This document shows, one piece after another, positions 2,507 through 10,076 of a stretch of 35,214 bases of DNA (its first letter is position 1; each line of letters begins with the position of its first letter). The position numbers were made by a program, and so were the translations under genes. This stretch comes from Candidatus Agathobaculum pullicola (GTDB taxonomy: Bacteria > Bacillota > Clostridia > Oscillospirales > Butyricicoccaceae): contig DXEF01000060.1 of NCBI GenBank assembly GCA_019115085.1, positions 1 to 35,214 on the forward strand. The letters are read 5' to 3'. The notes under the pieces were generated by a model. That model did not search any database. It was given only the letters and a program-made list of their open reading frames with translations, and was not told the origin of the DNA.

Positions 2507-2519
2507 GGAGGACAACAAA

Positions 2520-2741
2520 ATGAGCAAACTGAGCGAAAAAACCAAACTGTGGATCAAGGCGGCAGGTGTGCGCGCGGTCAAGACCGTGGCGCAGTCTGCC
2601 ATCGGTGTCATCGGTGCGGCGGCCGCGATGGGCGAGGTAAATTGGCCCATGGTCGCATCGGCAGCTGCGCTGGCGGGTATCATCTCCCTGCTGACCAGCG
2701 TCACCGGCCTGCCCGAAGTAAACGCACAGATGGAGGAGTGA
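2520..2741 (+). CDS. r1t-type phage holin
   Basis: The start is the ATG at 2520, set by an AAGGAGG ribosome site (2505-2512) just after the previous stop; longer in-frame readings lack a ribosome site. The 73-residue protein has a short basic N-terminus, two hydrophobic segments (residues about 20-37 and 42-62) and an acidic tail. The pattern WIKAAGVRAVKTVAQSAIG ... NWPMVASAAALAGIISLLTS matches the r1t holin family (PF16945). Holins form lesions in the cytoplasmic membrane at a set time and let the endolysin reach the wall. The gene lies directly upstream of the lysin, the usual lysis-cassette order. Confidence 0.85.
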   Translation: MSKLSEKTKLWIKAAGVRAVKTVAQSAIGVIGAAAAMGEVNWPMVASAAALAGIISLLTSVTGLPEVNAQMEE

Positions 2742-2745
2742 TTAC

Positions 2746-4080
2746 ATGAGCAGCATTCGTTGCGATATTTACGACCCCAAAGAGTATGACATCTGGTTTG
2801 CGGCTGCGCCCTACGGCGCGGCCAGCAAGCCCGCCAAAACACTGAAAGTGTGGGCGGCGGAGGAACAGGCCGATGTGGTGTACAACCTCTGCTTGTTCAA
2901 CATGACCGGCAACGGCAGCGACCAGTACGGTGTGATTAAGGGCCGCACGCTGCAATACTTACGCGCCAAGAACGTGGACTGCGGCTATGGCGGCACGGCC
3001 GAGCGCTTGACCGTCAGCCCGGGCAACGTGGTAAGCGGTACCAAGGTTGCCGTGCGTGACGGCGTGGTGCTGTCCGGACTGGACAAGTCCACCTACCGCA
3101 GCCGTAACATGATTGGCATGCTTGCGGACGGCCGCATCATCGTTGTGCAGTCCTCGGACGGCTGCACCGAGGAGCAGGTGGCGCGGTACGCCGCTGGGCG
3201 GTACACAATCAAACTGCTGCTGGTGCAGGATGCGGGCGGCAGCACCGGCATGTACCGCGTTTCAGACGGCTATCTGTTTGCCCCGGAGAAAGAGGGCACG
3301 GACGGCAGGCCGGTGTGCAGCGTAGTATGTATGAGAAAGAAAAACAAGGAGGAGAACGGCGATATGAGCAAGAAAAAGGTATTTATCGGCGTGGGCCACG
3401 GCGGCAGCGATCCCGGCGCGGTCGGCTATCTGGTCGAGAAGGACGTGAACCTCACGATGGCGACCGCGTGTCGCGATTTTCTGACGGCTTACGGTGTGGA
3501 TGTGAAAATGTCCCGCACCAAGGACGAGGACGACACGGTGAATCAGGAGGTCGCGGAGTGCAACGCTTACGATCCGGATCTGGCCGTGGACATCCACAAT
3601 AACAGTGGCGGCGGTGACGGCTTCGAGGTGTTCCACACGATTCACGGCGGCACGGGCAAGGTGCTCGCGCAGAATATCGAGAAGCACGTCAAGGCCATGG
3701 GCCAGAACAGCCGCGGCGTCAAAACCCGTCAGGGGAGCAACGGCGATTATTATGCGTTCATTCGTGAGACGGTCGCACCGGCGGTGATCTGCGAGGGCGT
3801 GTTCGTCGATACCAAGGCCGACGCCGCGCAGGCTGACACGCTGGCCGAGCAGCAGGCGTTCGGCGTGGCGTACGCGAAGGGCATCCTTGATACGCTGGGT
3901 CTGGCCTACGATGAGCCGGAGGAAGAGCCGGACGATTCGGTCGAGACCGACGAAGAGGTGCAGGCGGCGATCACCAAGGTGCAGCAAACGGCTGGCCTTG
4001 CTACGGGAACCATGCAGTACCTGCTGGCGTATAAGTACGGCACGGATCTGGTAATCAAGCTCGCGAACGCAATGAAATAA
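2746..4080 (+). CDS. Two-domain phage lysin: phosphodiester-glycosidase (NAGPA)-like domain plus N-acetylmuramoyl-L-alanine amidase
   Basis: The protein has 444 residues. Residues about 1-200 resemble a phosphodiester glycosidase (NAGPA, PF09992) domain, with GRTLQYLRAKNVDCGYG, NMIGMLADGRIIVVQSSDG and a final GMYRVSDGYLFAPE. Residues 207-400 are a zinc-dependent Amidase_3 domain: H218 in the GHGG motif, E231, H284 in DIHNN and catalytic E350 in CEGVFVD. The linker contains a strong ribosome site and an ATG at residue 207 that would give a 238-residue stand-alone amidase. The tail (about 410-444) is a helical segment. The amidase cuts the MurNAc-L-Ala bond. What the NAGPA-like domain does in phages is not known to me; it may act on wall-linked sugar phosphates. 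It is the last gene of the late operon, followed by a hairpin. Confidence 0.8.
   Translation: MSSIRCDIYDPKEYDIWFAAAPYGAASKPAKTLKVWAAEEQADVVYNLCLFNMTGNGSDQYGVIKGRTLQYLRAKNVDCGYGGTAERLTVSPGNVVSGTKVAVRDGVVLSGLDKSTYRSRNMIGMLADGRIIVVQSSDGCTEEQVARYAAGRYTIKLLLVQDAGGSTGMYRVSDGYLFAPEKEGTDGRPVCSVVCMRKKNKEENGDMSKKKVFIGVGHGGSDPGAVGYLVEKDVNLTMATACRDFLTAYGVDVKMSRTKDEDDTVNQEVAECNAYDPDLAVDIHNNSGGGDGFEVFHTIHGGTGKVLAQNIEKHVKAMGQNSRGVKTRQGSNGDYYAFIRETVAPAVICEGVFVDTKADAAQADTLAEQQAFGVAYAKGILDTLGLAYDEPEEEPDDSVETDEEVQAAITKVQQTAGLATGTMQYLLAYKYGTDLVIKLANAMK
3346..3366 (+). promoter_or_regulatory. Internal ribosome binding site and start codon for the amidase domain
   Basis: AAGGAGGAG at about 3347-3355 is followed after 8-9 nt by ATG (3364) and then a Lys-rich start (MSKKK) typical of a mature amidase N-terminus. 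No stop separates the two domains, so both a full-length and a short product are possible. Confidence 0.6.
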
Positions 4081-4083
4081 CGG

Positions 4084-4127
4084 TGTTCAATTTGAACACG
4101 GGAAAGCCCCGGCTTAGTAGCCGGGGC
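4084..4127 (+). terminator. Short palindrome and GC-rich hairpin ending the prophage late operon
   Basis: GTTCAA-T-TTGAAC (4084-4096) is a perfect 13-nt palindrome right after the lysin stop. It is followed by a hairpin with a perfect 9-bp stem, GCCCCGGCT/AGCCGGGGC (4106-4114/4119-4127), and a TAGT loop. There is no long T-run after it, so termination is likely but not certain. 4128-4262 holds nothing recognisable. Confidence 0.6.
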
Positions 4128-4262
4128 CTGTTAAATAGAGCTTGATAAGAGAGTGATATCTGCCGTTCGAGACCAGGGCTAACCAATTGGCAGCGTCCAC
4201 AGCGGCAGGACATCAGCGTATAGTGGGTGAAGCGATATAGAACAGCGAATGAAAGAAATACA

Positions 4263-4652
4263 CTATTCAACAATGATTTCTTTTGGATCAAGTACTTGTT
4301 TGGAAATGAGAAACGGAGGTAGCCCAGAGTTGGTCATAAAATTAGCAATAATAGATTGAGCAAATGGGAAAAGCTGATTATAAGCTTCAATGTGGGCTTC
4401 GGGCTTTTCATCTGATGATATTTTGTCACAAGAAAAATATCCTTTCATTTTGAGGGAAATAGATAAATTAGAGGATTCGGTTTTATCTTCACCTACTCGG
4501 ATATTGAAGGAAGCGATGCATCTTGTTCGATCTTCGTTGTAAGCAAGTTCAAGTTCATATTCTGTTTTAAGTTTTACTGACTGTTCAACCTCAAGGACAT
4601 TTTTAAAAGTAAATTCTGTAGTTTCGTACATTTCTAAATTAAAATTTTGCAT
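4263..4652 (-). CDS. SecB-like chaperone of a toxin-antitoxin-chaperone (TAC) module
   Basis: This 129-residue protein follows hicB after only 12 nt and has its own ribosome site (GAGGGTA). It consists of several amphipathic beta strands (residues about 10-70), then the segment NQLFPFAQSIIANFMTNSGL followed by PPFLIS (about 91-117). That segment is the hallmark of SecB and SecB-like proteins (LFPYAR..ISxLxxxGGFPPxxL). Firmicutes generally lack housekeeping SecB, and solitary SecB-like proteins are typically TAC chaperones, such as Rv1957 of the Mycobacterium tuberculosis HigB1-HigA1 system and the chaperone of the E. coli prophage CmdTAC system. The inferred role is to fold or protect the HicB antitoxin. 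Base composition is AT-rich compared with the late genes. Confidence 0.7.
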   Translation of the reverse strand: MQNFNLEMYETTEFTFKNVLEVEQSVKLKTEYELELAYNEDRTRCIASFNIRVGEDKTESSNLSISLKMKGYFSCDKISSDEKPEAHIEAYNQLFPFAQSIIANFMTNSGLPPFLISKQVLDPKEIIVE

Positions 4653-4664
4653 AACTTAGTACCC

Positions 4665-5183
4665 TCAATTTAACCTGTAAGATGTTAGGCAATTTCTATA
4701 ACCATCTTTATAATTGGTATTTCTTTCTCGTGTATATGAATTTTCCGTAGATTGAATATGACTAACGGTATAAAATGATGATGTGATCTTGTCGATTTTT
4801 TGAAAGATTGGTGTAAAATACTTGTCAACAGTTTGCAACGTAGAAAGTTTTGCGTTTAGAGAAACAATCGCGTCATTAACATATTGAGTCAAACTAACGC
4901 CTTGCGATTTTGCTAATGCTACGGCTTCAGCATGCGTGGAAGGAGAAAGCCGGACCGTAAACTTTCCGCTATGTGTAGGCATTTGCGCTGGCACCAATTC
5001 CGGAATAGGAATATTAAGTGTTTTGGCTGTTTCCAACCACTCGTTTTCATTCTCCTCTAGTTGCCTAATAGCTTCTTCAAGAGTATTACCTTGACCAACA
5101 CAACCTTTTAGACAGGAGCTTTCTGCCATCCAAAAAGTATGATCGTTGACTTCATAGTATTTTGTAGTATAAGGATAAATCAT
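4665..5183 (-). CDS. hicB: HicB-family antitoxin with a long C-terminal extension
   Basis: The start ATG overlaps the HicA stop (TAATG), so the two are translationally coupled. Residues 1-65 form the HicB partial RNase-H-like domain (FWMAESSCLKGCVGQGNTLEEAI, then a helix). Residues about 74-109 form a ribbon-helix-helix DNA-binding segment (KFTVRLSPSTHAEAVALAKS, SLTQYVNDAI). About 60 further residues (112-172) follow, rich in Ser, Thr, Asn and aromatics; ordinary HicB proteins end near the ribbon-helix-helix. With a SecB-like gene next door, this tail is a candidate chaperone-addiction (ChAD) segment that exposes the antitoxin to degradation unless the chaperone binds. HicB neutralises HicA and usually autorepresses the operon. 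Confidence 0.8.
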   Translation of the reverse strand: MIYPYTTKYYEVNDHTFWMAESSCLKGCVGQGNTLEEAIRQLEENENEWLETAKTLNIPIPELVPAQMPTHSGKFTVRLSPSTHAEAVALAKSQGVSLTQYVNDAIVSLNAKLSTLQTVDKYFTPIFQKIDKITSSFYTVSHIQSTENSYTRERNTNYKDGYRNCLTSYRLN

Positions 5184-5431
5184 TAAAACTCCTCCTCTAT
5201 CATGTTAAACAGATTGCATAACTGCTTAATATAAGCTTCTTGCACACACTTTCCATGTCGAGGGATGGGAATAATCGTTCCAGAAGGGATATGGGCAATT
5301 CGTATATGCTTTCCACCAGCAAGGACCGTACATCCATAGTGTTCAGATATTTTACACACTTCGTCAAACGTTAAATCGTTACGAAGTGGACGTTCAAAAA
5401 ATTTATTAACCAGTTTTTGGATTTTGGACAA
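5183..5431 (-). CDS. hicA: HicA-family mRNA interferase toxin (TTG start)
   Basis: The chosen start is TTG at 5431, preceded 9 nt upstream by AAGGGAG. It gives an 82-residue protein beginning MSKIQKLVNKFFERP, the usual HicA beginning. A longer in-frame reading (from 5569) would run across the promoter and add residues unlike any HicA. The body fits the HicA double-stranded-RNA-binding fold: an N-terminal helix, GCTVLAGGKHIRIAHI with the putative catalytic His42, then the strand TIIPIPRHGK and a C-terminal helix. HicA toxins cut mRNA and stop translation. Gene order hicA-hicB with the toxin first is typical of HicAB modules. Confidence 0.75.
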   Translation of the reverse strand: MSKIQKLVNKFFERPLRNDLTFDEVCKISEHYGCTVLAGGKHIRIAHIPSGTIIPIPRHGKCVQEAYIKQLCNLFNMIEEEF

Positions 5432-5465
5432 AGAGCAACACTCCCTTGTCGTTTTATGTGAAAAT

Positions 5466-5493
5466 GGTATCATATATGCCACTAAAGTGTCAA
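5466..5493 (-). promoter_or_regulatory. Putative promoter of hicA-hicB-secB
   Basis: On the minus strand a perfect -35 TTGACA (5493-5488) is followed after 16 nt by a weak -10 (GATACC; an overlapping TATGAT lies only 13 nt from the -35). It sits about 35 nt upstream of the hicA ribosome site and inside the longer, rejected HicA reading. Confidence 0.5.
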
Positions 5494-5581
5494 TAGGTTG
5501 AGAATATTTATCTGCTTTATCAGCATATTGAGAAAAGATGCTTGGATAATTACAAAACCTCTTCAACAAGTAACCGGAGGG

Positions 5582-5976
5582 GCTGTTTTTTCATAATTTT
5601 ATTAAAATTTCACTGATAAGCAATTATCTGGCAGGATAGATATTTTGATAAAACAATAAATCTGCTCAAAACAAAAGAGACCCATAACTTGCGTTATAGT
5701 ATGACTGATGTTTTGTCGTGGACGGTCATCTATCGGGAACACAGATTGCCGCACGCCTTAAGCCGCTGATCAGGACAGTTATTGACTTTAGCACCGCCAA
5801 ACAGTGTAATGACGCTCTAGAGTAAGGGATTGGTTAGAGTGATGCAACACGCTTTATATCGTGTTGCATTTTCGTGTTGCATCATGCGGTTTTTGATTGT
5901 ATTTTTGCGGCTCACTGTTGCAACACCACGGTATGTGCGCAACCGTTAAACTCCGCACCATATCTGAAGAAAATGA
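5582..5976. other. AT-rich intergenic stretch with inverted repeats; likely prophage-chromosome junction zone
   Basis: No convincing gene is present. A 35-codon open stretch on the plus strand (5718-5825, from GTG: VDGHLSGTQIAARLKPLIR...) has no ribosome site and is not recognised. 5840-5884 holds a set of repeats: TGATGCAACACG (5840-5851), CGTGTTGCAT (5860-5869) and CGTGTTGCATCA (5873-5884). The first can pair with either of the others. The position between the prophage genes and the tRNA makes this the likely junction. Confidence 0.4.
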
Positions 5977-6005: not shown

Positions 6006-6079
6006 TGGAGCGGATGATGGGAGTCGAACCCACCTATGCAGCTTGGGAAGCTGCCGTTCTACCGATGAACTACACCCGC
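6006..6079 (-). tRNA. tRNA-Gly (anticodon CCC), CCA encoded
   Basis: The minus strand folds as a cloverleaf. The acceptor is GCGGGTG/CATCCGC (one G-T pair), the anticodon stem is GCAGC/GCTGC with loop TTCCCAA, and the T arm is TGGG-TTCGACT-CCCA. The loop places CCC as the anticodon, reading GGG glycine codons. A discriminator T is followed by an encoded CCA (6008-6006). The 3' end points toward the prophage, the common arrangement when a tRNA 3' end serves as attB. Confidence 0.93.
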
Positions 6080-8165: not shown

Positions 8166-10076
8166 TCAGCCTTCAATAAACATCTCTTTGCCTTCGCCGC
8201 ATTCCGGGCAAATCCAATCCTCAGGCAGCTTTTCAAACAGCGTGCCGGGAGCGATTTCGGCATCCTCGTCACCCACCTCGGGGACATATTCGTAGCCGCA
8301 GCCGCCGCAGACATAGCGCTTGCCGATCGGCTCGGGCTTGGGCACGGGCGGGCGCTTCATCTTAACCATGGGCGGTGCAGGCTGCTTTTCGCCCGTATCG
8401 AGCGCAGCGGTCAACAGCGGCAGGATTTCATTGACATCGCCTACAATGCCGTAGTCGCAATTCTTAAAGATAGGCGCATTGCCATTCTTATTGATTGCAA
8501 CAATAGTAGAGGCGTCCTTGATGCCCTTAAGGTGCTGAATCGCGCCAGAAATGCCGCAGGCGATGTACAGGTTGCCCTTGAACTTCTGACCGGACATACC
8601 GACATAGCGGTCAAGCGGCACATATTTGAGCGTTTCTGCCACCGGACGAGAGGAACCGACCGCAGCGCCGGCAGCGCGCGCCAAATCCTCAATCAGCTGC
8701 ATATTTTCCTTGCTGCCGATACCCTGACCAGCGGAAACCACACGCTCAGCCTGCGTAATCGGGGTGTCGATCGGGATGCCGACCGTGAAGTCGTGGCCGT
8801 CCTTCTGCAGTGCCGCAACCAGTGCTGCGACCTTCTCTTCCGAAGAGCCTTCCTTAAGAATGTTGCGCTTGCGCACGCCGGTTACCGGTGCGGGCTTCTT
8901 CGGACGGCTGGACGAGCCGCCTTCGCTCTTGGGCGGCTTGCCCAAAATATTTGCGGAGATAACGACGCGCTGAATTTCATTGGTGCCCTCATAGATCGTG
9001 GTGATCTTGGCATCGCGGTACATGCGCTCTACATCCATGCCCTTGAGGAAGCCTGTGCCGCCGAAGATCTGCAGTGCATCGTTGGTTACTTCAAGCGAAA
9101 TATCGGATGCGTACATCTTGGCCATGGCAGCTTCCGTGGCGTACGGCTCGTGCGCTTCCTTCAGCTCGGCTGCGGAGTAGACCAGCATGCGAGCGCAGCG
9201 CAGCTTGGTCGCCATGTCCGCGATTTTGAACGAAAGAGCCTGCTGGAAGCCGATCGGCTTGCCGAACTGAACGCGTTCCTTTGCGTAGTCGACCGCCGCT
9301 TCGTATGCGCCCTGCGCAATACCGAGTGCCTGTGATGCAATGCCGATGCGTCCGCCGTCCAGCGTTGCCATGGCGATTTTGAAGCCCTGGCCTTCCTTGC
9401 CGAGCAGGTTTTCCTTGGGAACCTTGACATCATTGAAGATGAGTTCCGCGGTGGACGAGGAGCGGATGCCCATTTTGTCATAGTGGTCGCCGAAAGTGAA
9501 GCCTTCCCAGCCCTTTTCAACGATGAACGCGGAGATGCCGCGGGTGCCGATATCCGGCGTGGTAACCGCGAATACAACATAAGTATCCGCCTTGGGGGCG
9601 TTGGTAATGAAAATCTTGCCGCCGTTGAGCAGGTAATAGTCGCCCTTGTCAATGGCAGTGGTTTCGGTGCCGCCCGCGTCCGAGCCGGCATTGGGTTCGG
9701 TCAGGCCGAAAGCGCCGATTTTCTCGCCCTTTGCCAGCGGGACGAGGTATTTCTGCTTCTGCTCTTCCGTGCCGAACGCGAAAATTGGCCAGGAACCGAG
9801 CGATACATGGGCGGACAGGATAACGCCCGTGCCGCCGTCTACGCGCGAAAGCTCTTCTACTGCAATCGCGTAGCTCAGCACATCCAGACCGGCGCCGCCG
9901 TACTCCTTGGGGTAGGGCAGTCCCATAAAACCAAGCTCGCCCATTTTCTTGACAGCTTCCGCCGGGAATTCATTTTCTTTGTCCATGAGGAAAGCCTGTG
10001 GCTTTACCTCGGTTTCCGCAAAGGCGCGGATTTCAGCGCGCAGTTTCTCATGCGCGTCGGTAGTTCGGAACAACAT
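8166..10076 (-). CDS. Triple fusion: acyl-CoA (butyryl-CoA-like) dehydrogenase - EtfA FAD domain - rubredoxin
   Basis: The protein has 636 residues. Residues 1-380 are a complete acyl-CoA dehydrogenase, with flavin-binding LTEPNAGSD (125-133), catalytic base E363 in [10 protein letters not shown] and the butyryl-type [18 protein letters not shown] Pro/Lys/Ser linker follows (380-410). Residues about 440-560 match the C-terminal FAD domain of electron-transfer flavoprotein alpha ([39 protein letters not shown]); EtfB and the EtfA N-terminal domain are absent. Residues 586-636 are a rubredoxin with C590-x2-C593 and C623-x2-C626. The order implies flow from acyl-CoA through FAD and the second FAD to the rubredoxin iron and then to the adjacent flavodiiron protein. 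That is inference from domain content. The ribosome site is AAGGAGG. Confidence 0.92.

Follow-up and report, generated by a model that had tools for sequence, protein, structure and literature searches.

A trio of adjacent genes, hicA, hicB and a gene for a SecB-like protein, was recognised in a 35,214-nt stretch of Candidatus Agathobaculum pullicola DNA (the window) and is interpreted as a phage-borne toxin-antitoxin-chaperone (TAC) module that possibly aborts infection by rival phages, a reading to which we give a probability of about three in four. The initial annotation had described the trio as a HicAB-based TAC of a Firmicute prophage, and this description gained support from the SecB fold in the predicted model of the third protein, the tail of HicB, the recurrence of the trio in phage contigs and its position in a prophage cargo slot. 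In the proposed mechanism, HicA would act as an RNase, the N-terminal domain of HicB would bind HicA, and the DNA-binding domain of HicB would repress the operon. The extra C-terminal tail could destabilise HicB unless it is bound by the co-encoded SecB-like protein, which would assemble as a tetramer, and while this chaperone is free, HicA would be kept neutral. If something takes up the chaperone (most likely, by analogy with CmdTAC, a structural protein encoded by an invading phage), HicB would be lost, and HicA may then stop translation so that the lysogen aborts the rival infection. In the excerpts available of reports on published TACs, the chaperone binds and shields the antitoxin tail (PMC5105189, PMC6377645, PMC11618068, PMC9519451, PMC11980606, PMC4257090), and a phage capsid or tail protein can draw the chaperone away and thereby free the toxin. 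The window trio agrees with this picture in its gene order, HicB tail, SecB fold and phage location.

Table 1. Features of the trio and its surroundings (window positions).
Feature	Position	Strand	Remarks
Holin and amidase endolysin, lysis genes left of the slot	2508..4080	+	Prophage genes
Cargo slot	4114..5840	.	1.7 kb between endolysin and attR; no genes recognised besides the trio
SecB-like chaperone gene	4263..4652	-	129 aa; PF02556 match
hicB	4665..5183	-	172-aa antitoxin; PF05534 match; TAATG overlap with hicA
Extra C-terminal tail, HicB residues 121-172	4668..4823	-	Sits where chaperone-addiction (ChAD) segments occur
hicA	5183..5431	-	82-aa HicA-type toxin, TTG start; PF07927 match
Ribosome-binding site AAGGGAG of hicA	5441..5447	-	Read from sequence
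Promoter-like TTGACA-18-TACCAT, TG before second hexamer	5464..5493	-	Consensus match only
Imperfect inverted repeat 5474-5487/5515-5528, candidate HicB operator	5474..5528	.	Short; chance possible
tRNA-Gly(CCC)	6006..6079	-	Proposed attR core at its 3' end (6006-6030)

Judged from gene layout and families, hicA, hicB and the SecB-like gene follow one another in this order on the minus strand and apparently form a single operon (Table 1). As had been annotated, the hicA stop and hicB start share TAATG, the SecB-like gene begins after a 12-nt gap (hicB stop ending at 4665, ATG at 4652), and the trio runs opposite to the plus-strand holin and endolysin genes; in addition, the GAGGG ribosome site of the SecB-like gene overlaps the hicB stop. 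The likely start of hicA is the TTG at 5431, downstream of AAGGGAG, and a longer 128-aa ORF would extend back across the promoter-like site. The one TTGACA-type promoter claimed for the trio was recovered as this promoter-like site, a consensus match that carries little weight alone, as a 2-kb scan gave 8 such sites and shuffled sequences averaged 5.7. The inverted repeat that may serve as a HicB operator overlaps it.

The toxin gave 25.6 bits with PF07927 (E 1.3e-5), below the Pfam cut-off of 27, and its PHROGs match is a toxin (3.7e-5); NCBIfam listed no HicA model for it, and PDB sequence searches returned no relative of either HicA or HicB. His42, which we take to be the candidate catalytic residue, is invariant in all eight aligned rows, i.e., the window and seven relatives that are 46-57% identical. 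The protein is assigned as HicA because of the Pfam match, the position before hicB and the seven relatives that keep His42. A sub-threshold Pfam score could also be read as the mark of a decayed or inactive remnant, which is very improbable in view of three open frames, a ribosome site ahead of both hicA and the SecB-like gene, the promoter-like site and the retained His42.

The third protein had been called SecB-like, and this assignment held, with 26.7 bits to PF02556 just above the Pfam cut-off of 26 and a predicted model that has the SecB fold and resembles known SecB structures, among them Rv1957 in complex with its antitoxin peptide. It also matched the PADLOC model PD-T4-9_C (E 4.3e-5), and PHROGs places it in a family of unknown function. 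In NCBIfam, no model scored above cut-off for any of the trio, and the SecB models matched far below. Searches with this protein found no relatives in phage records, plasmids or viral contigs. Since no second SecB was seen in its own genome (82% complete), a role of the SecB-like protein in host export is unlikely.

The antitoxin matched PF05534 with 42.8 bits (Pfam cut-off 21), its DNA-binding domain spanning residues 72-106, and has a UPF0150-like N-terminus by a weak match and a HicB-like antitoxin as its PHROGs match (2.4e-6). Tails were counted as residues after the position equivalent to window residue 106, which gives 66 residues in the window. All five HicBs with a secure adjoining SecB-like gene have tails of 42, 42, 50, 56 and 66 residues, whereas those of all 29 HicBs without one have 1 to 31 residues, so the two groups do not overlap (Mann-Whitney p 2e-4, indicative only because the rows are related). 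The group without SecB comprised L022, L164, L180 and 26 class loci, these being all 28 of L023-L050 except L046 and L050, whose match stopped short of the DNA-binding domain; in four of the 29 (L025, L027, L031, L047) a stop lies inside the read-through match and the frame up to that stop was counted. Two other long-tailed HicBs, of L173 (68) and L178 (61), were set aside because neither is followed by a secure SecB gene, and they would weigh against the association if they lacked a chaperone. The extension is absent from the chaperone-free HicB homologues. The closest two-component HicAB in the class search, L022, is identical to the window at 38/82 HicA and 58/126 HicB positions; its HicB (46% identical) is 46 residues shorter and has no extra tail, and its genome gave no PF02556 match. 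HicB of the window probably depends on its chaperone, which would bind the tail.

No common sequence is visible among the HicB tails by inspection, and known ChADs are variable in sequence according to the excerpts of PMC5105189. A ChAD-like motif in the window tail (LTSYR against LSSYR) was rejected, as equally high scores were reached by 212 of 5000 shuffled tails and by 5 of 130 segments taken from other reading frames of the window, and the tail does not stand out in a score for SecB-type binding segments. The window HicB ends in YRLN without an LAA-type ClpP signal, and its single-sequence structure model was uninformative (pLDDT 36).

A search of 391 class genomes with HicB gave matches in 34, own genome included. 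With a SecB profile built here, a SecB was found beside HicB at none of the 29 other class loci (L022-L050), and 2 of the 33 other HicB-matching genomes have a SecB, on contigs other than that of HicB. In viral contigs, HicB alone as a query gave no matches, and two-sequence HicB and HicA profiles (window plus L022) found the phage trios. A SecB-like gene directly follows hicB in phage contigs L166, L167 and L168 and in the more distant L179, and L169-L172 have the same scores as L168. Their surroundings, named by reading of frames, differ: the trio is followed by an integrase in L166 and a recombinase in L167 and lies among head genes in L168. The third proteins matched the SecB profiles built here with E values of 1.1e-19 (L168), 6e-12 (L166), 1.4e-4 (L167) and 6.8e-4 (L179), and PD-T4-9_C matched all four distinct ones (1.2e-11, 8.3e-7, 0.0012 and 0.0064, respectively). 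With PF02556 (cut-off 26), L168 reached 23.4 and L167 18.2 bits, none passing, and no match was obtained for the third proteins of L166, L179, L173 and L178. The third protein of L173 is a marginal SecB match (E 0.0021). In L178, where the locus, as in the window, lies between endolysin-like and integrase-like frames, the long-tailed HicB is followed by a 143-aa protein (4487-4918) with no detectable SecB similarity, perhaps a chaperone of another type. Short HicBs without SecB occur in L164/L165 (IMG/VR) and L180; that of L164/L165 has 136 aa, with no SecB found within 4 kb.

Trees were built on the HicA and HicB cores with the tail removed. The nearest relative of the window core is the chaperone-free L164 (102/188 positions identical), a grouping with moderate support (93/92 in one tree and 85/89 in the other), and L166 and L167 group with the chaperone-free L022 (99/97). 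A single clade of the four SecB-bearing rows of the HicAB family was rejected (AU p 0.0027), as was a single clade to which L173 and L178 were added and from which the distant SecB-bearing L179 was left out (AU p 0.00055). Chaperone plus tail is patchily distributed within this one HicAB family, and given the rejection of a single clade, repeated gain or loss is probable. In the SecB tree, the window SecB clusters with 24 SecBs that look solitary from their neighbours, and 17 that look TAC-type lie across the split (100/99), 3 of the 17 having unclassified neighbours. A position of the window SecB on the TAC side (AU p 0.108) and a single clade of the HicAB-associated SecBs (AU p 0.125) were not rejected. 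Adding the phage rows, most of which have long branches, gave 96/98 for the split with a bootstrap that had not converged; L179 joined the solitary SecBs and three other phage rows the TAC-type ones.

The window SecB also gave 111.7 bits to a profile of solitary clostridial SecBs against 51.8 to a TAC-type profile. This affinity, together with the close relatives L164 and L022, which are HicABs without SecB, is what would be expected if HicAB were a plain two-component system and the SecB-like gene an independent chaperone, perhaps for phage morphogenesis or export, that shares the operon by chance. Such a coincidence is improbable, as tail length and secure SecB presence coincide without overlap and SecB directly follows hicB in separate phage contigs (L166, L167, L168) with unlike surroundings. 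With the trio taken as a TAC, a broader scheme can be offered tentatively: chaperone addiction would be a plug-in that phage HicABs gained, and perhaps lost, repeatedly, the window chaperone would have been captured separately, its source being solitary clostridial SecBs and not older TAC chaperones, and different SecB baits in a swappable slot could sense different phages.

The location of the trio at a prophage edge, as proposed in the initial annotation, agrees with the tRNA-Gly repeat and with the uninterrupted site in related genomes. The 25-bp 3' end of the tRNA-Gly (6006-6030) recurs at C19:35227-35251, between an integrase and a tatD-like gene, the latter named by reading of its frame, and in genus-mates G004 and G005 the tatD-like gene, tRNA and bioY are contiguous without a prophage. 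The two ends of the prophage were assembled on separate contigs, C19 and C58, and its middle is not joined; an exact attL-type pattern had no match in viral contigs. Tail fibre, holin and endolysin genes of the phage precede the trio. Similarity to two same-site sibling prophages ends at 4113-4116 and resumes at 5841, and Rfam found nothing in the slot thus delimited. The same slot is empty in G023 (L149), with 27 bp between the borders, and holds three other genes with weak matches to PDC-M32 in G002 (L150). Fifteen regions were picked from sibling-prophage matches, several sharing one genome. Directly behind the endolysin, two of them carry a SIR2-like gene, while AbiD, a ClpP-like protease, an HTH and AP2 pair and the three-gene cassette (L150) occur in one region each; three carry nothing (L149, L153, L158), and six have no assignment (L156, L157, L159-L161, L163). 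The SIR2-like genes with TPR repeats (L152, L162) match PADLOC SIR2 models with E 1.3e-27 and 1.2e-25 and Pfam SIR2_2 below cut-off, and the AbiD of L154 is split over two frames. The slot is a swappable accessory slot, with defence-family genes in 3 of the 15 regions. Taken together, the cargo of siblings L152, L162, L154, L151 and L150 at this position consists of SIR2-like, AbiD, ClpP-like protease or DUF6941 cassettes. Upstream of the trio, 5547-5779 is 72% similar to slot cargo of L151 (4195-4442), a likeness by which slot contents may share border DNA. In L090, a protein resembling superinfection-exclusion proteins (9414-9950; phrog_4980, E 3e-49) adjoins the prophage integrase.

By analogy, the trio may guard the lysogen against rival phages; superinfection defence fits some of the other slot contents (SIR2-like, AbiD) and the published anti-phage TACs. 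A TAC inside an integrated element could instead benefit the prophage by retention, loss of the element freeing HicA as HicB and chaperone decay, and phage HicABs are, in the literature excerpts at hand, proposed or shown to stabilise elements. This addiction role is rather unlikely here, given that the same-site sibling L149 persists with the slot empty and that SIR2-like or AbiD genes occupy the slot in some other siblings. To our knowledge, SIR2-like and AbiD genes are not addiction modules.

A HicAB-type TAC as a kind has been known since 2016, which the initial annotation did not mention. The system of Methylomonas methanica (Metme_2813-2812 plus SecB; Bordes et al. 2016, PMC5105189) acts, according to the passages available, as a TAC in E. 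coli in which control of HicA requires the chaperone, and it shares with the window the three families and a C-terminal extension of HicB (residues 119-159 there). The two were likened by description, with sequences unaligned; the window trio lies in a prophage, and those passages give no phage location. What is unusual about the window trio is its phage relatives and its close chaperone-free relatives. No report of a phage-borne HicAB-SecB family was recognised in the literature covered, which linked HicAB to SecB, prophages or chaperone addiction and did not extend to the survey that Sala and colleagues published in 2013. CmdTAC of E. coli, which is PD-T4-9 and protects against T4 according to excerpts of PMC11618068 and PMC9519451, likewise has three genes and a SecB-like protein of the PD-T4-9_C type; its toxin is an ADP-ribosyltransferase, whereas the window toxin matches HicA only, and it has another antitoxin, CmdA, ending in LAA rather than YRLN. 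Other TACs are described in literature excerpts as protecting against T2 (MqsRAC) or as triggered by a lambda tail protein (HigBAC). The HigB1-HigA1-Rv1957 TAC of M. tuberculosis differs from the window in toxin and antitoxin families and shows no convincing tail similarity. In the class 4 hicAB with a ribbon-helix-helix HicB, the gene order and HicB domain layout are the same in the portions available of Gerdes 2024 (PMC10865869), and the window adds the tail and the SecB gene; the main text there on 14 HicA contexts mentions neither SecB nor a chaperone. The route by which an ordinary antitoxin comes to need a chaperone can be addressed in one HicAB family, in which closely related natural members have or lack tail and SecB, the window against L164 and L166/L167 against L022, and swaps of tail and chaperone make the question testable. 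Furthermore, the idea of SecB-based TACs as phage sensors is extended to temperate phages of Clostridia-type hosts, in the same genus in which prophage cargo slots also hold SIR2-like and AbiD genes.

Apart from the window, no trio came to light in cellular genomes, whether in the roughly 1.5 kb around SecB matches (394 genomes of the order, 391 of the class, 398 of the phylum) or at 26 SecB loci of the genome_contigs set. Across the gathered loci, the HicA and HicB profiles matched only window-derived and HicB-fetched loci; they derive from the HicAB family of the window, and a distant HicAB could escape them. The phylum scan gave 24 SecB matches in cellular Bacillota, of which only that of the window adjoins HicAB by frame reading. 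Twelve adjoin a frame that we take to be ADP-ribosyltransferase-like from an unscored motif (one of them, in L126, is broken by stops), HigBA-like pairs lie beside four and an MqsRA-like pair beside one, L114 seems to be solitary, and five are unclear. Small frames just upstream of SecB-like genes in L115, L116, L118, L120-L123, L126 and L055 end in AA, VA or AT and mostly follow the ADP-ribosyltransferase-like frames; they recall the LAA end of CmdA and look like CmdTAC relatives. A SecB-like match with ten stops beside an antitoxin-like frame in L126 (G815:C20) looks like a decayed TAC. The clostridial SecB-like genes of L058-L083 mostly stand alone beside unrelated genes. In L019 (G098:C5, 1489-2921), a GNAT acetyltransferase, a 143-aa protein without a Pfam match and a SecB-like gene (PD-T4-9_C, 3e-6) lie in a row, possibly an acetyltransferase-type TAC.
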